The translations under genes and the position numbers were made by a program. A stretch of DNA of 58,998 nucleotides from a virus, in IMG/VR virus record IMGVR_UViG_3300025009_000015, positions 1 through 58,998 of that record. One strand, 5' to 3'. This document shows, in pieces, positions 9,311 through 58,998 of the stretch. Below the pieces are notes generated by a model that saw nothing but the letters and a program-made list of their open reading frames with translations, ran no database searches and was not told where the DNA came from. Each line of letters starts with the position of its first letter. Position 1 is the first letter of the stretch.

Positions 9311-9393
9311 AACATAAATCGAGCAAAGGGTAAAGTCAAGAAAATAATTCACGGAAGATGGGGATTGATTTTTCGGCGGATTGAAGTCAAAAT
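9311..9393. promoter_or_regulatory. Divergent promoter region, CHAP operon / primase-helicase
   Basis: Minus side: box AATAATTCAC (9343-9352), -35 TTGACT (9334-9339), 17 bp, -10 TATGTT (9311-9316). Plus side: the usual TCGRAA element is missing; a TTGATT (9365-9370), 17 bp, CAAAAT (9388-9393) arrangement is the best candidate for the primase-helicase gene. Confidence 0.65.
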
Positions 9394-9508: not shown

Positions 9509-11950
9509 GTGGCAGATACCCCCATCCCTCTCCCCCGGCTGCTGGTACTCCCGCGCCGGGAGATAAAGGCACTGCGAACCAACCCCCCACCCGACGACCT
9601 GCAGGTATTCCTACTCCAGCCCGGACTCGAGGCCCTGACGCGCGCCTACGAGACGGACGCGCACCTGACCATGTACGACCTCGCGGGAGAGGACAGTATC
9701 CCACGGCTGACGAAGTGGCCGTCAGGGCTCAAATACCTCAAGGACCAGGGTCTCGCTCCCATGGTCCACTGGTGCGTGCTCGACGTCGACACGCCGGAGC
9801 ATAAGCTCTGGACGGAGACCCCCCCGCAGTGGTGGATAGGCCAGCTCAGCGCCATAAAAAATTCACCTGAGGCGGGCAAGGCGGGCTGGTACAAGACGCG
9901 GGGAGGCTACCACCTGGTCTGGCCGTTGTCTCCCCCGCTCCCCCCGGACGACTGGGAGCGGTACGTCGCCGCGCTCAGGGCTCGGCTCCGTCGCGACGGC
10001 ATCGCGATCAACGAGGAGTGCAAGGACTGGACGAGGCTCATGCGTCTCCCGCACGTGACCAGGGAGGGGGTAGCACAGGACCTCCCGCTCGACTTCAGCG
10101 TGATGGGCTGGCTGAACCTGCTCCAGGCCCCCGCGCCAACCTTGACACTCGTCCCCCCAGCACCGACAGCAGCACCAGAAAAACCAGCATCCCTCGCGAC
10201 GATGGACGATTGGTCCCTCGTGAAGGTCGGTGCCCCACTGAAAAAGCAGCTCGAGGGGGGTTTCCCCTTCTCGAACACTCCAGGGAAGCGGATCGAAAAG
10301 ATGGGCGAGCAGGGGAGGGACACCCTGATCCTGTCCGCCGCGGGGGCGCTCCTCTCGTCCATGGACCGGCCCGACCCGGAGGTGGTGGTCCGGCTCCTGC
10401 TCCCGTCCGTGCTCGCGAGTCGCCGAGACGACCCCCAACAGATCGGGGACGAGGAAACACTCAGGGATCGGGTCCGGACCCTCGCGGAGAAAGAGCGAGA
10501 GAAACGACCCCCTCCCCCGAAGCCTCCATCCGATCCATTCGACGGGCTCGAGCAGCAGGTCGTCGCGTCCACCCTCCCGCTCCTAATATCCTCCCGCGTC
10601 GGCCGTGGGTACTACGTCCTGGACGACAGGACGAACGGATACGTGGGACCACACTCACCAGACCACGTGTCCAAGGCAGTCCTGGATCTTTGCCCGTCCC
10701 GTGGGGCTCGGGCGGTCGGAGACAAGGGCGCACCTCGCGAAGGAAAGCGAATTTTCCACGAGGATGGCGCGTTCGCGGACCAGATCATCCTGCGGGCAGG
10801 GGAGGACATCAGCAGGTACGACCCGAAGTCCCGGACCCTGTTCGAAGCCTGCGCTTCGTGGGCCGAGTACGAACCACAGGAGAGTCCCGAGGTGGGTTGT
10901 TGGCTCGAGCTCCTGGGTGGGGATACTACGCCAGCACTGCTGGACTGGCTGGCGACGGTCAGGAAGATCTCCCGCCCCACCTGCGTGCTCTACCTCCAGG
11001 GTCCGAAGGGTATCGGGAAGAGCATGCTCCCGGAGGCGCTCGCGCTCCTCTGGAAGTCCCGGGCCATCGTGCCCTACGAGACGCTCAGCGCGAACTTCGA
11101 CGGCCAGCTCGCGGAGAGTCTGCTCGTCGTCGCGGACGAAGGGATGCAGGACAGGGCGAACGGTCGAGGTTCTCCGTCCGCGATCTTCCGCACGGTCGTC
11201 ACGGGGAGTCGACGGACCATAAAGCGGAAGCACCTCCCCGACGCGGTGCTCGAGGCGTGCTTCCGCCTGGTGGTCACCAGCAACGACGACGAAGCTCTGA
11301 ACCTCCGGGAACAACTCACGACAGAATCGATCGAGGCCATCGCCGAGAGGATACTCTACGTCCAGGCCGGACCGGAGGCCGGAGAGTACCTCCGGTCGCT
11401 CGGGGGACGTGAGCACACCGAAGACTGGGTCAGAGGGGGGGCACTGGTCCGGCACGTTCTCTGGCTCGAGCAGACCCGGAAGGTCGTCCCGGGGAACAGG
11501 CTGCTCGTTGAGGGGACGTCCGAGACGCTCATGGCGAGGGTCGCCGGCAAGGTCGGGATGAACCGGCACATCGTCGCGGCGCTCTGCAGATACCTGGACC
11601 AGTACGCCGACCGAAGAGTTCGAACAGCGACCGACCGCGTGATGGGGGACCTCGGGCCGGTCTACCACCCCAGAATCTACGTCCAGGACGGAGACCTCTG
11701 GGTCAACCTTGAGGCACTGCACGAACGGTGGCCACTCTTGCACGGGGGGCGTGACCAGGTGACGAGGGATGCCTTGGCGCAGGGGCTCCGGTCTCTGAGT
11801 CGAGGAAGAAAATTTCGACGCAAGGTCGAAGGGAAGCTCGAGTACGTCTACCAGGTAGACGGTGCCGAGATACTCGCCTCCGCGTCGTCTCTCGGTCTCG
11901 GAGACACCGACCAGATAGCCACTCTTCTTTCCTCTTCAGTCCCCTTCTGA
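9509..11950 (+). CDS. Primase-polymerase (AEP) fused to a D5/SF3-type helicase
   Basis: I start this 813-residue protein at GTG 9509 because AGAGG lies 5 nt upstream; an in-frame GTG at 9503 is possible. The N-terminal half resembles an archaeo-eukaryotic primase: CVLDVDTPEH near residue 90, GGYHLVW near 133 and DWTRLMRLPH near 174. The C-terminal half is an ATPase with Walker A GPKGIGKS (about 497), Walker B LLVVADEG (about 540) and a sensor RLVVTSND, as in virus D5-like helicases. Together they would unwind and prime DNA for PolA. The gene borders the AT-rich candidate origin. It ends in SSVPF, one of seven Pro-Phe endings. Confidence 0.88.
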   Translation: MADTPIPLPRLLVLPRREIKALRTNPPPDDLQVFLLQPGLEALTRAYETDAHLTMYDLAGEDSIPRLTKWPSGLKYLKDQGLAPMVHWCVLDVDTPEHKLWTETPPQWWIGQLSAIKNSPEAGKAGWYKTRGGYHLVWPLSPPLPPDDWERYVAALRARLRRDGIAINEECKDWTRLMRLPHVTREGVAQDLPLDFSVMGWLNLLQAPAPTLTLVPPAPTAAPEKPASLATMDDWSLVKVGAPLKKQLEGGFPFSNTPGKRIEKMGEQGRDTLILSAAGALLSSMDRPDPEVVVRLLLPSVLASRRDDPQQIGDEETLRDRVRTLAEKEREKRPPPPKPPSDPFDGLEQQVVASTLPLLISSRVGRGYYVLDDRTNGYVGPHSPDHVSKAVLDLCPSRGARAVGDKGAPREGKRIFHEDGAFADQIILRAGEDISRYDPKSRTLFEACASWAEYEPQESPEVGCWLELLGGDTTPALLDWLATVRKISRPTCVLYLQGPKGIGKSMLPEALALLWKSRAIVPYETLSANFDGQLAESLLVVADEGMQDRANGRGSPSAIFRTVVTGSRRTIKRKHLPDAVLEACFRLVVTSNDDEALNLREQLTTESIEAIAERILYVQAGPEAGEYLRSLGGREHTEDWVRGGALVRHVLWLEQTRKVVPGNRLLVEGTSETLMARVAGKVGMNRHIVAALCRYLDQYADRRVRTATDRVMGDLGPVYHPRIYVQDGDLWVNLEALHERWPLLHGGRDQVTRDALAQGLRSLSRGRKFRRKVEGKLEYVYQVDGAEILASASSLGLGDTDQIATLLSSSVPF

Positions 11951-12480
11951 ATCGATTTCATTACGTTTTCCTCTCTTTTTATCTAGTTGACTTTTGATTC
12001 TGAATCCGATACAGAATGGATTTTATTGGGTTTTTCGACTTGTTGACTATATCACACGTTGTTAATAGTCTATATTGCGCTGTTTTATAGGCCAGGAGCA
12101 TGTTTTTCTATCTCGTTGAATTCGTTAACTTTGCTCATACACTATACAGTGTTTTGTCGATCTATCGATCTATCAGTGATCTACCTGATGAATTATTCGA
12201 TAGATCGAAAAAATCCTTTATTTTTCGATAAGTTAGTGCCATTCGATCTATCATTCTATCTCTTTTTTTATATATTAAATATATAGTATAGAGGGGGTGG
12301 CACACATAGCACTGAGTAGTCAGGGGGAGAATAGAGGCCTGTAGGGTAAATAAACGCGAAATGCCTAGATCTGCTAGATCTGCTAGATCGACCTTTGATA
12401 TCATTGAAGAAATAGCTGTTTTTTCGATCTATGTGAGGATTTTAGGGATAGAATGAGGTAGATCTTGTTTTCACTCTGAA
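11951..12480. other. AT-rich, repeat-filled intergenic region: candidate replication origin
   Basis: About 530 bp without a credible gene; the short frames here are AT-rich by chance. It is far richer in A+T than the rest and holds several copies of GATCTATC and its complement (near 12158-12175, 12198-12208, 12243-12263), a direct repeat of TGCTAGATC (12369-12390), and a long AT run at 12263-12292. It lies next to the primase-helicase gene. Iteron-like repeats, an unwinding-prone segment and this neighbour are what an origin would show. Confidence 0.65.
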
Positions 12481-12495
12481 CAGATTTTTTCTCAC

Positions 12496-12525
12496 TTGAC
12501 ACTCGACCCCCCCGGCGGTCATACT
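12496..12525 (+). promoter_or_regulatory. Sigma70-like promoter for the VRR-NUC/TerS genes
   Basis: -35 TTGACA (12496-12501), an 18-bp spacer and -10 CATACT (12520-12525). The ATG at 12532 starts 6 nt after the -10, so the mRNA is probably leaderless. There is no AATAATTCAC box here. Confidence 0.65.
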
Positions 12526-12531
12526 GTGAGC

Positions 12532-13089
12532 ATGGCACTCTACTCCTACAGCACCGAAGCGCTCGACCTGGCCCTGGCCTGCCGCAAGGCACTGTCAGCG
12601 TGGGACTTGTCGTCGCTCGACGAGCCGATAGCGCGAGCCGAGACGGTGGTCCACTTCCATGCTGGTCTGCGGGAGATGGAGCGCGTGAAGCGCACCGGTG
12701 TCTCTGCCGTGCCGCTCGAAGAGGAGACGCAGGCGCTCCTGGTCTCGACCCTGAGGCAGGACCCTCTGGCGTGGATGCCTGACGGCAAGGTCGGCGTGGT
12801 CGTCGTCCACCATTCCCCGCTCGGCTACCACCGGACTGCGTTCCAGAGGGCGTCTGCGAAGCGCGCGGGGGCGGACTCGAGCTGGCCTGACCTGGACGTG
12901 CGCATGGTCACACCTCACGGCCCCGTGGCGCTCCTGCTCGAGCTCAAGGCAGGGAAGGGCAGGCTCTCGGACGGGCAGCGCGCCCTGGGGGATAGGGTGC
13001 TCCTGGCAGGGTTCGAGTACAGGTTCGCTCGAGGTCTCGGGGAGGCCCTCCGGGCAGTGCTGAATTATTTGATGGAGGTACCGTTCTGA
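12532..13089 (+). CDS. VRR-NUC domain nuclease
   Basis: The protein has 185 residues. Residues from about 120 (SSWPDLDVRMVTP, LLELKAGKGRLSDGQ) form the VRR-NUC version of the PD-(D/E)XK fold, with PD, E-L-K and the downstream Q. Such stand-alone nucleases in phages are thought to act on branched DNA. The ATG is 6 nt after the -10 box and has no ribosome site. The stop overlaps the terminase start (TGATG), which ties it to packaging, so junction clearance before packaging is a reasonable guess. It ends MEVPF. Confidence 0.85.
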   Translation: MALYSYSTEALDLALACRKALSAWDLSSLDEPIARAETVVHFHAGLREMERVKRTGVSAVPLEEETQALLVSTLRQDPLAWMPDGKVGVVVVHHSPLGYHRTAFQRASAKRAGADSSWPDLDVRMVTPHGPVALLLELKAGKGRLSDGQRALGDRVLLAGFEYRFARGLGEALRAVLNYLMEVPF

Positions 13090-13721
13090 TGCCGGCTCGT
13101 CGTTCACCAGGTCCGGACCAGCCGGACGCTCAGGCAGTGCTTGAACTCGTAGCAGCAGGGGACAGTGTCCCCGACGCGGCTCGAGCGTGTGGCCTCCTGC
13201 CCGGAACGGTCTGGAAGTGGATCGATGCCGGGACGGAACCCGAGCCCCCGGTGTGGGCGAATGACAAGAAAAAGTCCAAAATGAGCCAATCTCTCTGGCA
13301 GGCATGCATCAAATATTCACAGGATTACGAAAAAGCCAGGCTCGACGGGAAGCGCGCGATTGCCCAGGAAGCATTGAAAACCATACGGTTAGCAGCAAGC
13401 AAAGGTTTTCAGACGACGAAGATTCGGCGGACGAAGGACGAGCACGGTGCCTCCAAGGGGGAGGTCACAGAGTTAGTTCAGGCTTCCCCGATCTGGACTG
13501 CTGCCGCATGGTTCCTCGAGAGGGCTATCCCTGAGGAGTACGCCCAGCACTCCCAGGTTACGCTCCACTCGGATCTCACCCTGGCCCCCGGGGAGGCTGA
13601 CGAGGTGGTCGAGGCCTGCACTGACGACGAAGCCAAGGCCATCGACCGCGGGGACGCCAAGATTCTCGGTCAGGTCCTGGCCCGCGTCCGCTCGAAACCT
13701 ACCTCCCAACCAGCCGAGTAG
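13089..13721 (+). CDS. terS: Terminase small subunit
   Basis: The 210-residue protein has an N-terminal helix-turn-helix (SVPDAARACGLLPGTVWKWI, about residues 22-41) followed by helical segments and an acidic C-terminus, as in small terminases of the homeodomain-like type. It would bind the packaging site and load the large subunit. The start overlaps the VRR-NUC stop. Unusually, the large subunit gene starts about 7 kb away at 20710 with two minus-strand islands and a modification module in between. Confidence 0.75.
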   Translation: MPARRSPGPDQPDAQAVLELVAAGDSVPDAARACGLLPGTVWKWIDAGTEPEPPVWANDKKKSKMSQSLWQACIKYSQDYEKARLDGKRAIAQEALKTIRLAASKGFQTTKIRRTKDEHGASKGEVTELVQASPIWTAAAWFLERAIPEEYAQHSQVTLHSDLTLAPGEADEVVEACTDDEAKAIDRGDAKILGQVLARVRSKPTSQPAE

Positions 13722-13786
13722 TGAATTATTGTACACTCTTTACTGTTGTATTTCTGCTTCTAATCTGAACACCTATAATTTCACTG

Positions 13787-13962
13787 AATAATTCACTTGT
13801 CTTTCGAGTCAAAATTCCTGATTGGCCTAAGTCGATCAGGATCTAGACCCCCTCAAAATCGCTGTGGGCTCCAAGGCGACACGATCGAGGGTCGGTCAAT
13901 AGCAAAGCTTATCTTTTTTGAAAATCGATTCTAAGGCCCCTAATAGCTTACTGGTGACGTCG
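13787..13962. repeat. Three-copy intergenic element, copy A
   Basis: This copy starts with AATAATTCAC (13787-13796) and shares with copies B and C the blocks CTAAGTCGATCA, GACCCCC, GGTCAATAGCAAAGCT and TTCTAAGG-TAGCT-GACGTCG. GACC-CCCTC (13846-13854) can pair with GAGGG-GGTC (13887-13897). It lies between convergent genes, after terS and before a minus-strand island. On the minus strand part of it is an open frame, but its changes relative to B and C do not follow a codon pattern. Confidence 0.8.
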
Positions 13963-16738: not shown

Positions 16739-17025
16739 AATTTTCCTACACGTTTTCGGCCTGGACGAGGACAGGGACGGAGGTCGTCGTCACGGTGGGT
16801 GCCCTGCTCGAGCGTACCGGCAGCGGTGACGTGTGGGACAACGACGGGCTCTCTGCTCGGGCGGTGACACAGGTGCGCAACGTCGTCCGTGCCTTGCCTG
16901 ACGGCAGGACTCCGGAGGACACCATTCTCGCGGTGTGGGACGCCCTGAGTTCCGCAGAGTTCGAGCTCCCCTGTGTCCGTGTGTCCCTCCAAGATAGGCA
17001 GTTGAGGGTGGAGGTGTTCAGGTGA
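16726..17025 (+). CDS. Hypothetical protein, 99 residues
   Basis: The start is GTG 16726, inside the end of the HTH gene, with a G-rich ribosome site upstream. The protein has strands at the start (ELKFSYTFSAW) and end (CVRVSLQDRQLRVEVFR). It overlaps the ParB-like gene by 4 bases. No family is recognised. Confidence 0.6.
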   Translation: MGELKFSYTFSAWTRTGTEVVVTVGALLERTGSGDVWDNDGLSARAVTQVRNVVRALPDGRTPEDTILAVWDALSSAEFELPCVRVSLQDRQLRVEVFR

Positions 17026-17516
17026 CCAGGGACCGCATCGTGGACATCGTCACAGTCAGGGCTGGGGACCTCGTCCCGAACCCGCGCAACTGGCGGACGC
17101 ACCCGGAGGCGCAGCGCAGGGGGCTCGAGCAGATACTCGACCGGGTCGGGAGTGTCGATGTCCTGAAGGCAGTACGCCTCCCCAGCGGGGAGCTGCAGCT
17201 CGTGGACGGTCACCTCCGGGCGGACATCCGGAGGGACGAGCAGGTCAGGGTCGCTGTGCTCGACCTGACACCTGAGGAGTCCGACCTGGTGCTCGCGACG
17301 TTCGACCCTGTGAGCGCGATGGCGGAGGCGGACCTGGACGTGCTCCGGGGGCTGCTGGACGACGTCAAGATGGAAGTCCCTGCGGATATGATCGAGGCGC
17401 TCGAGGCGTTGATTCGAACGGGAGATCCTGTCGAGCCCAGGAAGTTCGACACAGATGTTGAGGACGAGGTTAAGTACGTCGTCTGCCCGAACTGTGAACA
17501 TAGGTTTCCGAAATGA
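17022..17516 (+). CDS. ParB/sulfiredoxin-fold protein (ParB-like N-terminal domain)
   Basis: The protein has 164 residues. It has the ParB N-terminal signature: NPRNWRTHPEAQRRGL, then LQLVDGHLRADI. A pair of cysteines near the end (CPNCEHRF) may bind zinc. Phage ParB-like proteins of this kind often sit beside methyltransferases and may act as nucleases or CTP switches bound to DNA. Here a C5 methyltransferase follows directly, which fits a modification module. The GTG start overlaps the previous stop. Confidence 0.8.
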   Translation: MTRDRIVDIVTVRAGDLVPNPRNWRTHPEAQRRGLEQILDRVGSVDVLKAVRLPSGELQLVDGHLRADIRRDEQVRVAVLDLTPEESDLVLATFDPVSAMAEADLDVLRGLLDDVKMEVPADMIEALEALIRTGDPVEPRKFDTDVEDEVKYVVCPNCEHRFPK

Positions 17517-17862
17517 AGCCGAGTGTCCCACCAGGAAATTCTCAGATCGTGTCGATCGCACAGGCCGTGAGTGTTCCAGATGGGACTCTCGGGTATATCA
17601 CGGCGTCGAATGAGAGACACACAAGGAGCCTCTTCGATTGATGTATCAACCTGCCCCTACCATGGTGAAAACCGGTAACAGTAGGATGATGACGGGGAAC
17701 AGGGTAGAGGCGATCTCCCCGATCGAGGCCACGAGGTTCTCCTCCTTTCCAGACCAGTACAAATTCCCAGGACGAGCGTCCGAAGTGATCGAGCGCGTCG
17801 GTAACTCCGTCCCTCCCCTCCTCATGTTTCGCGTCGCTCAGCATATCAAGGAGAACCTCTTC
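17514..17862 (+). pseudogene. Remnant of a second C5 methyltransferase (recognition end and motifs IX-X)
   Basis: 17514-17641 encodes a 42-residue frame with GYITASNERHTRSLFD, typical of the segment before motif IX. After a frame change, 17641-17862 continues with YQPAPTMVKTGN, FSSFPDQYKF and VERVGNSVPPLLM, which are motifs IX-X. The same end occurs again at the true C-terminus of the next gene (SWPDQYFF, VRRVGNSVPPLLM). Motifs I-VIII of the first copy are missing. This looks like a tandem methyltransferase pair whose first copy lost its 5' part. Confidence 0.65.
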
Positions 17863-18954
17863 ATGCACCAGATCCAGAAGATGACTTCCAGCAGGAGGCC
17901 TTACGTCGAAGTGCTCGACGACCTGTGGACACGACACCTGGCCCAGCGTGAGCCAGACGCGCCGACCGTGGTTTCCCTCTTCGCGGGGGCCGGGGGCTCC
18001 TCCCTGGGGTACTCCGCTGCGGGGTTCAGGGAGCTGCTCGCCGTCGAGTGGGACAAGCACGCGTGCCAGTGCCTGAGACAGAACTTCCCGGGGTTGACTG
18101 TCTACGAGGGGGACATCTCGAAACTCACCACGGAGCGGGCGCTCGAGCTGGCAGGTATCACTCCGGGTGAGCTGGACGTGCTCGACGGCAGTCCACCATG
18201 CCAAAGTTTCAGCACGGCCGGGAAGCGGGACATGAATGATCCGAGGGGGCAACTCTTCCGGGAGTACGTCAGGATGCTTGGCATATTCAGGCCAAAAGTT
18301 TTTGTTATGGAGAATGTCTCAGGGATGGTCAAGGGCAAGATGAAGCTCATCTTCGCCGAGATCCTGCGGACGCTGCGGGGGGCAGGGTACGAGGTCGGGG
18401 CTTGGCTCCTGAACGCGATGCACTACGGCATCCCTCAGAGCAGGGAGCGCATGATCTTCGTGGGGGTCCGGTCGGACCTGGTGGGGGCCGGCCCAGGAGT
18501 ACCCCCGGGATCTAGTAGGGGGATCACGTTTCGGGAAGCAGTAGAAGGGTGTCCTGACGTAGGGGGGAAAGTACTTGGGGAATTTCTCCAGAGGATGGCA
18601 CAGAGTCAGCCGAGGGGGCTCTGGAGTAGTCATCTAGGGATCTGGCGGAGATTAAAGGGGAACGACGCCAGCTGTATGAGCACGAAATGGTGCTCCTGGG
18701 ATGACACCCCGGGAACAGTCACCAAAGAATGGATTTCCCTGTCGGGGATGATTCATCCATGGCGTGAGAGATATCTGTCTGCGGGGGAAGTGAAGAGAAT
18801 AGGGTCCTGGCCGGATCAATATTTCTTTGTGGGGAAATTTGGTGATATAGTCCGGAGGGTAGGAAACTCCGTCCCTCCCCTCCTGATGGACAGGATCTCC
18901 CAGCACGTCCGCAGGGAGATCCTCTCGAAGCTTAAACATCAGGCCCCTTTTTAG
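17641..18954 (+). CDS. DNA (cytosine-5) methyltransferase with duplicated C-terminal motifs at its N-terminus
   Basis: The full frame from 17641 encodes 437 residues; AAGGAG 9 nt before an internal ATG at 17863 suggests a 363-residue enzyme as the main product. From there the order is classical: motif I FAGAGGSSLGY, motif IV GSPPCQSFS (catalytic Cys), motif VI VMENVSG, motif VIII PQSRERM and motif X GNSVPPLL. The first 75 residues repeat motifs IX-X. It methylates cytosine in a short DNA site, probably to protect phage DNA. It ends KHQAPF. The 3' end overlaps the convergent DUF932 gene by 4 bases. Confidence 0.88.
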   Translation: MYQPAPTMVKTGNSRMMTGNRVEAISPIEATRFSSFPDQYKFPGRASEVIERVGNSVPPLLMFRVAQHIKENLFMHQIQKMTSSRRPYVEVLDDLWTRHLAQREPDAPTVVSLFAGAGGSSLGYSAAGFRELLAVEWDKHACQCLRQNFPGLTVYEGDISKLTTERALELAGITPGELDVLDGSPPCQSFSTAGKRDMNDPRGQLFREYVRMLGIFRPKVFVMENVSGMVKGKMKLIFAEILRTLRGAGYEVGAWLLNAMHYGIPQSRERMIFVGVRSDLVGAGPGVPPGSSRGITFREAVEGCPDVGGKVLGEFLQRMAQSQPRGLWSSHLGIWRRLKGNDASCMSTKWCSWDDTPGTVTKEWISLSGMIHPWRERYLSAGEVKRIGSWPDQYFFVGKFGDIVRRVGNSVPPLLMDRISQHVRREILSKLKHQAPF

Positions 18955-33588: not shown

Positions 33589-33951
33589 GTGTCGATCGTC
33601 TGGTCAGACGTAACTTCTGCCTTTCCGAACGACGCGACACTGGCAGCAGTGGGCGCTACGGAGGGGCAGACGTACGTCGACTGGACGGACGAGCAGGTGG
33701 ACGACGCGATCTTGGGAACGCGCGCGGACCAGGTCCGGATCCTGCTCGCGGCGCACCTGGCGACGGTCGTATCCTCTGGTGGGTCCGGAGCCTCTGGCCC
33801 TGTCTCCTCAGAGAGTGTCGACGGGGTGAGCCGTTCCTACGCGGTGACAGCAGCAGCGGACGGGGACGACCTGTCCGCGACGAGCTATGGGCGTCGGGCT
33901 GCGATGCTGATGAGGACCAGTCCGAACGCGCGACTCCCGAGGGCGTTCTGA
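33589..33951 (+). CDS. Head-tail adaptor (DUF4054 family)
   Basis: The protein has 120 residues, with a GTG start directly after the previous stop. It has the helical adaptor pattern: FPNDATLAAVGATEG, RADQVRILLAAHLATVV, then GPVSSESVDGVSRSYA and TSYGRR. These form the ring between portal and tail. It is the first gene of the neck cluster. Confidence 0.8.
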   Translation: MSIVWSDVTSAFPNDATLAAVGATEGQTYVDWTDEQVDDAILGTRADQVRILLAAHLATVVSSGGSGASGPVSSESVDGVSRSYAVTAAADGDDLSATSYGRRAAMLMRTSPNARLPRAF

Positions 33952-34438: not shown

Positions 34439-34827
34439 TGACAATTTTATCGCAAGCGACCGACCCCCAGCATCCCGCAGTGACGGCGGAGGCGATCCCC
34501 TCCAGGGTTTTCGTCTGTGTCCGGGCGTCCGACCTGTCCGGGAAGGTCCGTGTCGCGACGAACGCAGAAGAGGACGTCGCCGGACTGCTCGGGTTCGCGC
34601 CGAAATCGGCCAGCGCAGAAAAGTCGATCCTCCTTTACCGCGATGGCGACGTTGTTCCCGGGTTCACCGGGTTGACGCCAGGGCAGGAGTACCATTTGAA
34701 CGTGTCGAGTCTCGCGCTCGCGTCAGCACTCACGGCGGGGACGTGGACAAAAAAGGTGGGACTCGCTCGGAGTTCGACGCATCTCGAGTTGAGTTTTGGT
34801 CGGATGGTGTCTCAAACGAAACCGTAA
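34438..34827 (+). CDS. Virion decoration-like protein, paralog 1
   Basis: The protein has 129 residues. The ATG overlaps the previous stop (TGATG). The second half, GLTPGQEYHLN followed by KVGLARSSTHLELSFG, recurs in the next gene as GLTPDAEYYAD and MGKARSATTFKISMG. This GLTP-EYY-GxA-S-T pattern is known from small beta domains at phage virion surfaces. It likely decorates the head or neck. Confidence 0.65.
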   Translation: MTILSQATDPQHPAVTAEAIPSRVFVCVRASDLSGKVRVATNAEEDVAGLLGFAPKSASAEKSILLYRDGDVVPGFTGLTPGQEYHLNVSSLALASALTAGTWTKKVGLARSSTHLELSFGRMVSQTKP

Positions 34828-39576: not shown

Positions 39577-39649
39577 ACTATAATCAGGCAAGAGAAAAAA
39601 TCAACAAAATAATTCACAGCTCGACGTTGTTTCCACTGTGAGCTATTCT
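39577..39649. promoter_or_regulatory. Bidirectional promoter cassette, 39541 island / tail chaperone
   Basis: Minus side: -10 TATAGT (39577-39582), 16 bp, -35 TTGATT (39599-39604). Centre: AATAATTCAC (39608-39617). Plus side: -35 TCGACG (39621-39626), 17 bp, -10 TATTCT (39644-39649). Confidence 0.85.
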
Positions 39650-42792: not shown

Positions 42793-42823
42793 TTGCTCGT
42801 ACTGTAAGCAATTGACCGGATTG

Positions 42824-43010
42824 AATAATTCACTGGAAAAGATCGACAAACTTCCTGATTGACCTAAGTCGATCAAGATCTGGACCCCCTCAAAATCGCT
42901 GTGGGCTCCAAGGCGAGCAAAACGAAGGATGGTCAATAGCAAAGCTCATCTTTTCAAAAAATCGGTTCTAAGGCCTCTGGTAGCTCGCTGGCGACATCGA
43001 ATTTTGGAGG
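42824..43010 (+). repeat. Three-copy intergenic element, copy B
   Basis: It starts with AATAATTCAC (42824-42833) and is very close to copy C in the first 50 and last 80 bases. TGATTGAC-CTAA-GTCGATCA forms an 8-bp hairpin. GACC pairs with GGTC and CCT with AGG in the next helix; TCGC pairs with GCGA inside it. A TTGCT/AGCAA inverted repeat lies just before (42793-42811). It fills the gap between the tape measure and the Dit-like gene. Confidence 0.85.
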
Positions 43011-48649: not shown

Positions 48650-50056
48650 CTATTTATGGAGCACCACGTAAACGGTGTTGATCCGCGTCCCGGACGACGC
48701 GAACGACTCCATGGGGAGATCCCGGAACGGAGACCCGTAGCAGTCGCTGTGCTTCTTCGCCCACGCACGGAAAGTGTCGTGCGCCTTGCTCTCCCCGAAC
48801 TCGACGGTGGCGGGGAGGATGGCGACCAGCTTCCCCCCGGGGCGCAGGAACTCGAACCCCAGCAGAACGTGTTGCATGTAGAGAGTCCCGTGGAACGGGG
48901 GGTTCATGACGACGTGGGAGTACGCGGGGACGGGAATCATTCGCAGGAAGTTAGCGTGTAGGACGGTCAGTCGCTTGTGCGCGCGAGACAGCTCTTGCAG
49001 CACCAGGACCCTCCCCGCGTCTACCTCCACGGCGTCGACTCCCGCCCCCGTCTTGAGCAGGTGGCGGACGATGTTCCCCGTACCTGCTGACGGTTCGAGT
49101 ACCCGACTCCCCTCGTTGATGTACAGGTCAGACAACAACTTTTCGACCACTGCTTCGGGCGTCGGGTAGAACCCCAGGTCTTTGCAGAGTACCGTAGAGC
49201 GCTCTCGGATGTCCTTGTCTGTCACGTCCGCCGGGACGCCGTCCGGAAGCACCTCCCCGTAATAGTCTGCGAGCACACCGTTCGCTTTCCCGACCAGGTC
49301 GTCTCGGGTGAACCAGAGATGCGCGTTCCCGTTCATGTACGTGCGGATCCGGAAATACTCCGACTCTGTGCAGGACTGCCGGGGGTTGAGGTTCCGTCCG
49401 CGCCCCTCGTCGATGGCGTTGATCAGCCCGCGGGGGTCGGGCTTGTTCCCGTCCAGGACGGCGAACACCCGCTCGACGTCGCAGATCGTGTCCCTCATGC
49501 TGTAGTGGCCCCAGTTCCCCCGCTCGTTGAAGACGTTGGTCAAGATGATTCTCGCCCCGATCTTGAAGGCGTCGTGGCTCCGGAACCTCCTGTCCAAGTC
49601 GATGAAAGCACGGGCCAGCCCTCGCTGAAAGATCAGGTAGGCGTCCTTCCGCAGGCCATCGAACGTCGCGTAGATCGTGTCCTCCGACACCTCCGGTACG
49701 TCGTTGCAGAGCTGATCGTACAGCTCATCTTTGGCGGTCCTGTCCATCATGTGCTCCATGCCGGTCAGGCACAGGAGGTTCATCCACACCCTGGCGTCGA
49801 CCTGCTGGCGGTACGCCTCGAAGCTCTTCTCTGGGTCGATCCCTTCGAAGAGCCTCTTGTACGCCTCCGACCTGCTGCGGTCGGACAGCGTGAACGTCGC
49901 CGCCCCGTGAGCCTGCTGCGCGTGCCGGTAGGACTGCTCGGCCAAGGCTTGGCCCTGTACCATGGCTGCCACGGCATCGCGCATCATGGTCATGGCTGCG
50001 TCCCGGTGAGCGCACACCTCGGTCACGGTCGTTCGGGGGATAAGGGCTGTCTCCAT
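48650..50056 (-). CDS. DUF4942 protein with N6-adenine methyltransferase domain
   Basis: The protein has 468 residues. The N-terminal 280 residues are of the DUF4942 type (FDGLRKDAYLIFQRGLARAF, then RIILTNVFNERGNWGHYSM). The C-terminal domain has GFYPTPEAVVEKLL, motif I VLEPSAGTGNI and motif IV VVMNPPFHG (NPPF, adenine-specific). It would modify adenine in phage DNA. It is a single-gene island with its promoter at 50092-50120 and has no CTCGAG site in its sequence as far as I could see. Confidence 0.85.
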   Translation of the reverse strand: METALIPRTTVTEVCAHRDAAMTMMRDAVAAMVQGQALAEQSYRHAQQAHGAATFTLSDRSRSEAYKRLFEGIDPEKSFEAYRQQVDARVWMNLLCLTGMEHMMDRTAKDELYDQLCNDVPEVSEDTIYATFDGLRKDAYLIFQRGLARAFIDLDRRFRSHDAFKIGARIILTNVFNERGNWGHYSMRDTICDVERVFAVLDGNKPDPRGLINAIDEGRGRNLNPRQSCTESEYFRIRTYMNGNAHLWFTRDDLVGKANGVLADYYGEVLPDGVPADVTDKDIRERSTVLCKDLGFYPTPEAVVEKLLSDLYINEGSRVLEPSAGTGNIVRHLLKTGAGVDAVEVDAGRVLVLQELSRAHKRLTVLHANFLRMIPVPAYSHVVMNPPFHGTLYMQHVLLGFEFLRPGGKLVAILPATVEFGESKAHDTFRAWAKKHSDCYGSPFRDLPMESFASSGTRINTVYVVLHK

Positions 50057-52885: not shown

Positions 52886-52920
52886 TTCATTGCTCGCACT
52901 GTAAGCAATTAATTCACTTG

Positions 52921-53106
52921 AATAATTCACTTGAAAAGATCGACAAACTTCCTGAATGAGTTAAGTCGATCAAGAATCGGGACCCCCGAAAACGCGCCAC
53001 AGCTCGCCGGTGACACGATCGACGGGTGGTCAATAGCAAAGCTCATCTTTTCAGAAAATCGATTCTAAGGGCTCTAATAGCTCGCAGGCGACGTCGAATT
53101 TTGAGG
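52921..53106 (+). repeat. Three-copy intergenic element, copy C
   Basis: It starts with AATAATTCAC (52921-52930). Relative to copy B the middle 45 bases differ most, yet GACC/GGTC and CCCG/CGGG still form the central helix. The last 70 bases, from GGTCAATAGCAAAGCTCATC, are nearly the same as in B. An ATTGCT/AGCAAT inverted repeat precedes it (52889-52910). It fills the gap before the fibre gene. Confidence 0.85.
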
Positions 53107-58831: not shown

Positions 58832-58872
58832 TCTATACAAGTATCGAAAAAATAGTCAATAGAAAAATTCAC
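58832..58872 (-). promoter_or_regulatory. Minus-strand promoter with AAAAATTCAC box at the join
   Basis: Minus-strand order: box (58863-58872), -35 TTGACT (58854-58859), 16 bp, -10 TATAGA (58832-58837). It drives the 58791-to-55095 block. The box spans the circular join and includes the polA stop (58869-58871). Confidence 0.7.
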
Positions 58873-58998
58873 TCCATCGGGGCGAGGTAGCCGTCCGTGT
58901 CGTAGACCGGCTTGATCTCCCGCCCGGTTTTCCGGTCCTTGATCCAGCGGCGCGCGTATGCTGCTGTGCTCCGGATCGGGACGTCGGGGAACCAGAAC
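58872..58998. repeat. Terminal direct repeat, right copy
   Basis: These 127 bases are identical to bases 1-127 and hold the 3' end of polA. See the left copy; the genome is a circle of 58,871 bp. Confidence 0.95.

Follow-up and report, generated by a model that had tools for sequence, protein, structure and literature searches.

A candidate replication origin with facing iteron arrays beside the primase-helicase gene of a 59-kb myovirus record

A 581-bp AT-rich, non-coding gap (positions 11951–12531) between the stop codon of a primase-helicase gene and a VRR-NUC-like gene is probably the main replication origin of the virus described here. The window, by which we mean the whole stretch of DNA that was analyzed, is the 58,998-bp record IMGVR_UViG_3300025009_000015, with a GC content of 61.5%. 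The assignment draws on sequence layout, repeat statistics, strand skew, and recurrence of the layout in other phages. A sequence-only reading had proposed a candidate origin adjoining the primase-helicase; this proposal is supported by the strand-corrected skew and by facing repeat arrays that recur past the primase-helicase genes of further phages, one of them within the origin annotated in Streptococcus phage Sfi21. By its sequence features, the window belongs to the iteron-origin kind, as a predicted origin.

The record looks like a complete 59-kb myovirus. Family searches identified terminase, portal, sheath, baseplate, family-A DNA polymerase, sliding clamp, helicase, and methyltransferase genes; the presence of the polymerase and the clamp was counted in favor of an origin. 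Our own crude gene caller gave a set of 67 genes. An exact 127-bp terminal repeat (1–127 and 58872–58998) resembles an assembler's circularity mark, and because its length suggests an assembler word size, the record ends are probably not physical ends. A lone tRNA-Asn (GTT) lies at 2821–2893 on the minus strand, outside the gap, and the tRNA was the sole match of an RNA-family search. With the primase, nuclease, polymerase, large terminase, or promoter pattern as queries, viral contigs yielded no diverged relatives, every match being identical in sequence to the window, and nothing close to it was found in phage, plasmid, or genome collections. All records found with window DNA matched at 100% over the shared parts; the gap is present in just one, contig IMGVR_UViG_3300001242_000073.

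The GC content of the gap is 36.9% over 11951–12532, which bears out the sharp drop that had been noticed at 11951–12480. The eight lowest-GC segments listed at 300 bp, and likewise the eight at 500 bp, all lie in the gap, with minima of 0.31 and 0.35, respectively, compared with 0.42 and 0.47 for the best segments elsewhere. The gap had also been called the largest in an otherwise packed genome. The first part holds: positions 11951–12495 form the longest stretch free of ORFs of at least 100 aa in any frame (545 bp; the next is 345 bp). The second part is only partly right, as there are several longer or similar uncalled stretches, of up to 887 and 1121 bp; these contain ORFs that score between those of the gap and clear genes, the calls being those of the crude gene caller. 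The codon use of the three ORFs that lie within the gap or overlap it scores as strongly non-coding, from −0.42 to −1.01 per codon. No intrinsic terminator was found on the plus strand in 11800–12700, and no match with at most one mismatch to TTATCCACA, which we take to be the DnaA box, in 11900–12600.

The repeats that had been reported as occurring only here were confirmed. GATCTATC is present in four copies in the record, all of them in the gap (three on the plus and one on the minus strand), and both copies of the direct repeat TGCTAGATC in the record are found there as well; together the repeats span 12157–12464, within the proposed 11951–12480. Their common core is GATCTA, which occurs 10 times in the gap versus 0.89 times expected (maximum of 5 in 2000 dinucleotide shuffles) and 10 times in the remaining 58.4 kb. 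The copies are arranged in two facing arrays, the first of which begins 209 bp past the primase-helicase stop. The left array (12159–12183, plus strand) has GATCTA at 12159, 12167, and 12178, a spacing of 8 and 11 bp, with extra copies at 12201 (minus) and 12245 (plus). The right array (12366–12389) is inverted, with minus-strand copies at 12366, 12375, and 12384 in an exact 9-bp period and extra copies at 12426 (plus) and 12459 (minus); the array-to-array distance is 182–193 bp. A candidate melting core with a GC content of 12.5% is located between the arrays at 12253–12292. Over 40 bp, duplex stability has its record-wide minimum in the segment that begins at 12250, and the 80-, 150-, and 300-bp minima likewise fall in the gap. 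The first iterons form a long stem-loop (12157–12208) with 12-bp perfect arms (12157–12168 and 12197–12208); no local inverted repeat found in the record is longer, at arms of at least 10 bp and a loop of 3 to 80. The fold of 12131–12230 has a z-score of −6.2 against 60 shuffles; in a coarse scan of 393 segments, however, the one at 39601 scored lower and the one at 33601 about equal, so that the fold alone is not special.

A skew inflection elsewhere had been named as one observation that would speak against an origin in the gap. We analyzed the skew and found no such contradiction: the minimum of the raw cumulative curve is at position 10,700 and its maximum near 55 kb. Because gene direction also switches near 9.4 kb, third-position skew was fitted with gene-strand and replichore terms, which gave 0.058 (s.e. 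0.014) for the replichore term and 0.021 (s.e. 0.012) for the strand term, with boundaries set in hindsight for that fit. A full boundary scan of the strand-corrected GC3 skew placed the best origin bin at 11.5–12.5 kb (support 7.5–14.5 kb) and the terminus bin at 49.5–50.5 kb, the two arms of the model being unequal. With all genes, none of 60 and none of 1000 permutations equaled the fit; with two gene subsets, 1 and 2 of 1000 did so. When the primase gene is left out, the best-fitting bin is instead the one at 7.5 kb (support 7.5–12.5 kb), a fit equaled by 1 of 1000 permutations.

The gene upstream of the gap (9509–11950, plus strand; the ORF could begin at 9365) has a DUF5906 helicase domain according to a profile match above the gathering score (E=5.5e-9), and it matches the DNA primase family phrog_1156 (E=1.7e-4). 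Its nearest counterparts in phage collections are Vibrio phage DNA primases, with 30.6% identity over 14% of the query (E=6e-7). A weak match (E=0.04) was obtained to chains 6k9c and 6k9e, named Primase, which are presumably those of NrS-1. The helicase domain of NrS-1 belongs to superfamily 3, according to PMC7102993. By eye, AEP-like motifs can be discerned in the 861-aa ORF (VLDVD at 138, GGYH at 180, RLPHVT at 227), as well as a Walker A motif at 545; motif definitions and the origin of another satellite are described in PMC5862659 and PMC7145576. The D5_N and primase_Cterm (TIGR01613) profiles, both of which match the BPP-1 protein, gave no match here, nor did the Prim-Pol profile even at E 10. 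For this reason, the primase half is assigned from the motifs and the superfamily-3 placing from similarity. No significant similarity emerged when the protein was compared directly with proteins and profiles of the BPP-1 type; the DUF5906 model also matches the proteins of phi105, Urkel, and YS162 (above the gathering score) and of BPP-1 and Acinetobacter phage 4316 (below it). Structure prediction for both ends of the protein gave mean pLDDT values of 36 and 40, too poor for any search. A winged-helix C-terminus, suspected from ETS-domain matches that were weak and non-significant (E 0.44 and up), is not claimed. Downstream of the gap lie the VRR-NUC-like nuclease gene (12532–13089, plus strand; queried from 12496; phrog_824, E=4.8e-17; VRR_NUC, E=7.7e-4, below the gathering score) and a terminase small subunit-like gene (13089–13721, plus strand; phrog_4102, E=1e-5; HTH_23, E=4.2e-6).

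We searched for the facing-array layout in other phages with a scanner that requires 6-mers in tandem with a period of 7–12 on both sides, facing each other 30–200 bp apart, a rule that was set after viewing the gaps of the window, BPP-1, 4316, BcepC6B, phi105, MR14, AchV4, and Wrath. In the 58,998 bp of the window, it finds a single place, the gap, and none in 2000 shuffles of the gap. The first set comprised 23 phage loci in addition to the window, 24 records with BcepC6B counted joined, and totaled 266,661 bp. It yielded eight places, 16 records having none, and its shuffles yielded five in 2.67 Mb. Seven of the eight lie 44–467 bp past a primase-helicase stop: the window gap, BPP-1, 4316, BcepC6B, Urkel, phi105, and AmM-1. 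The eighth, in Proteus phage PM-CJR (L036, 8420–8623), is 3.1 kb past the primase stop and near the record end; it is either a chance occurrence or a displaced origin. In the 40,739 bp of Sfi21, the only place (34576–34678) falls inside the annotated "origin of replication, 302 bp non-coding region". P4 has no place under the strict rule, and one of three held-out loci has one (P185, beginning 3 bp before the last base of the primase-helicase gene). The total is thus 10 places in 29 records, nine of them at the 3' end of a primase-helicase gene, with 19 records lacking a place.

The 21 records that were not used for the rule (Urkel, DS11, ZoeJ, K300, 12 from a spread list, Sfi21, P4, and the three held out) contain five places, of which four (Urkel, AmM-1, Sfi21, and P185) are at the gene 3' end and the fifth is that of PM-CJR 3.1 kb away. 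The 12 spread records were hand-picked, one per genus name, among 60 listed of 1,336 phage records with a match to the BPP-1-type primase; in these, most or all of the matched stretch lies in the helicase half, and an Enterococcus record of 2,313 bp was excluded. The places in Urkel and P185 overlap small annotated ORFs. No place was found in DS11, a record without an annotated primase stop, and no facing array within about 4 kb in Vibrio phage K300, one of the 19 nearest primase records. The gap after the MR14 primase-helicase lacks the order of iterons, core, and inverted iterons, as do AchV4 and Wrath by the strict rule. Six of eight cores have a GC content of 10–36%; those of Urkel and AmM-1 have 51% and 58% and are AT-rich only relative to their surroundings. 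The word TATATAG occurs on the primase strand in five of eight cores (window, 4316, BcepC6B, phi105, and Sfi21) versus 0.25 expected and in 0 of 1000 shuffles, having been chosen from the same cores in which it was counted; among later loci it was found in one of three, in a phage that shares its genus with phi105. This hints that TATATAG may be a shared element for melting or priming.

Four other explanations of the gap were considered. It is improbable, though the least so of these, that the gap serves early genes as a block of operators and promoters, GATCTA being the site of a regulator. A sigma-70-like promoter, TTGACA-18-CATACT, indeed lies just ahead of the next gene (12496–12525, plus strand), and 11800–12700 contains four promoter-like sites versus 1.4 expected. 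However, the promoter-linked box that recurs in this virus is AATAATTCAC, of which the gap holds just a one-mismatch copy, and a single rightward gene needs no facing arrays around a melting core. All 15 exact copies of this box in the window are located between called genes (at 9343, 13721 on the minus strand, 13787, 16426, 20661, 23024, 39608, 41171, 42824, 46285, 46305, 50124, 52194, 52214, and 52921). Many of these copies have a leftward TTGAC..TATAGT-like promoter on one side and a rightward −10-like TACACT on the other, and the boxes apparently constitute a phage-wide divergent promoter set with one common regulator site. A repeat of about 180 bp is also present in three copies between called genes (13785–13962, 42822–43006, and 52913–53103; 77–82% identical), each with a AATAATTCAC box near its start.

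Slightly less probable again is a pac-like terminase recognition region, in which the repeats would be sites for the small terminase, whose gene begins 700 bp past the end of the right array. The order of primase gene, gap, small gene, and small-terminase gene is also found in BPP-1, Acinetobacter phage 4316, and BcepC6B (in the last across the record boundary). In BPP-1, the primase gene is followed by a gap with the small opposite ORF bbp28, a small gene annotated as an endonuclease with a weak match to an HTH model, and the small and large terminase genes. In Sfi21, however, the layout at 34.6 kb lies inside the annotated origin, far from the terminase genes at 69–2420, and the stretches of phi105 and Urkel that were examined contain no terminase-annotated gene, though many genes there are unnamed. 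A packaging site would also leave the skew unexplained.

A partition or centromere site, which clustered short repeats and one ParB-like match at 17022–17516 might suggest, is very unlikely: the same match also fits a DNA methyltransferase family, and no ParA match was found with PHROGs or Pfam among 54 distinct ORFs (about seven of them probably in a wrong frame), which cover part of the 67 called genes. The ParB-like or methyltransferase-like gene adjoins a C5 cytosine methyltransferase gene, the two together at 17022–18954; another methyltransferase, encoded at 48650–50056, has a DUF4942 domain. That the gap is the remnant of an acquired AT-rich gene is hardly credible, as its low GC content and ORFs of 75, 80, and 63 aa are outweighed by their non-coding codon use and by facing arrays and a stem-loop that a decayed gene does not explain.

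The gap thus reads best as the origin, and the primase-helicase encoded just upstream is fairly likely to be the initiator that binds its iterons. In the mechanism we envisage, this protein would recognize the GATCTA iterons, and the left array together with the inverted right array would load two hexamers face to face, which would melt the 12.5%-GC core at 12253–12292. The primase domain would then prime the exposed strands, and the family-A polymerase and clamp of the phage would extend two forks in opposite directions.

The proposed origin follows a layout that is already known. As described in PMC6092414, on whose wording our comparison is based, the origins of PICI/SaPI satellites have the same layout, and the window has in common with the PICI and Sfi21 type the facing iteron sets, the AT-rich center, the position directly downstream of the candidate initiator gene, and the DUF5906 helicase domain common to such primase-helicases. 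Unlike the satellites, the window is an autonomous myovirus that encodes a polymerase and a clamp of its own; its iteron is a different one, and it has extra copies outside the arrays. According to PMC7581432, the Rep helicases of SaPIs recognize iterons located downstream of the gene that encodes them and seem to bind in the form of two hexamers. SCCmec Cch2 is described as binding direct repeats downstream of its own gene.

In the origin of Sfi21 (NC_000872), which is non-coding and 3' of a putative primase gene, two iterons with an 8-bp period are followed by a 67-bp core at 10% GC and the same two iterons inverted; it is tighter and simpler than the window, and its iteron is TTAGTTAC-like rather than GATCTA. 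No paper on this origin was found in the open-licence literature. BPP-1, BcepC6B, 4316, and phi105 have, after the primase-helicase gene, two iterons with a 9-bp period, an AT-rich core of 64–78 bp, and two inverted copies, with the annotated ORF bbp28 between the primase gene and the array in BPP-1. Compared with these four and Sfi21, the left-array spacing and array distance of the window are looser, and the BPP-1-type cores are shorter. In P4 alpha/crr, annotated type 1 repeats in both orientations lie just past the alpha gene 3' end, the first two 9 bp apart; P4, in contrast to the window, has a second, separate origin region and is negative under the strict scanner rule.

The pRN1 replicon requires a stem-loop that lies immediately downstream of its PrimPol-SF3 gene; in PMC4234260, the authors report neither an iteron structure in pRN1 nor specific binding in their assays. 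The same text proposes such a downstream stem-loop for BIP-1/BPP-1 and dismisses as origins repeats found only elsewhere in BIP-1; on our reading of the sequence, the BPP-1 stem-loop would be made by the inverted 9-bp iterons. We therefore raise, tentatively and at somewhat less than even odds, a general class: facing iteron arrays with a melting core directly 3' of a D5/DUF5906-type primase-helicase gene, in autonomous tailed phages of Gram-negative, Firmicute, and actinobacterial hosts. In this class, the "stem-loop origins" of pRN1-like phage replicons such as BPP-1 would be these inverted iterons, the window a distant, iteron-rich member, and TATATAG possibly a shared melting or priming element. 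Such a plan for phage origins in general is not stated in the titles or abstract openings of the open-licence papers that the literature searches listed, and one paper describes the facing-iteron plan as confined to PICI satellites. The phage loci compared here, one annotated phage origin among them, hint otherwise and speak against such confinement, which is the wider and more interesting suggestion of this work. If it is true, a single simple rule could suffice to locate, in the sequence, the origins of many phages with such a primase-helicase, and the origin plan would be common to satellites and full phages instead of being the satellites' own.
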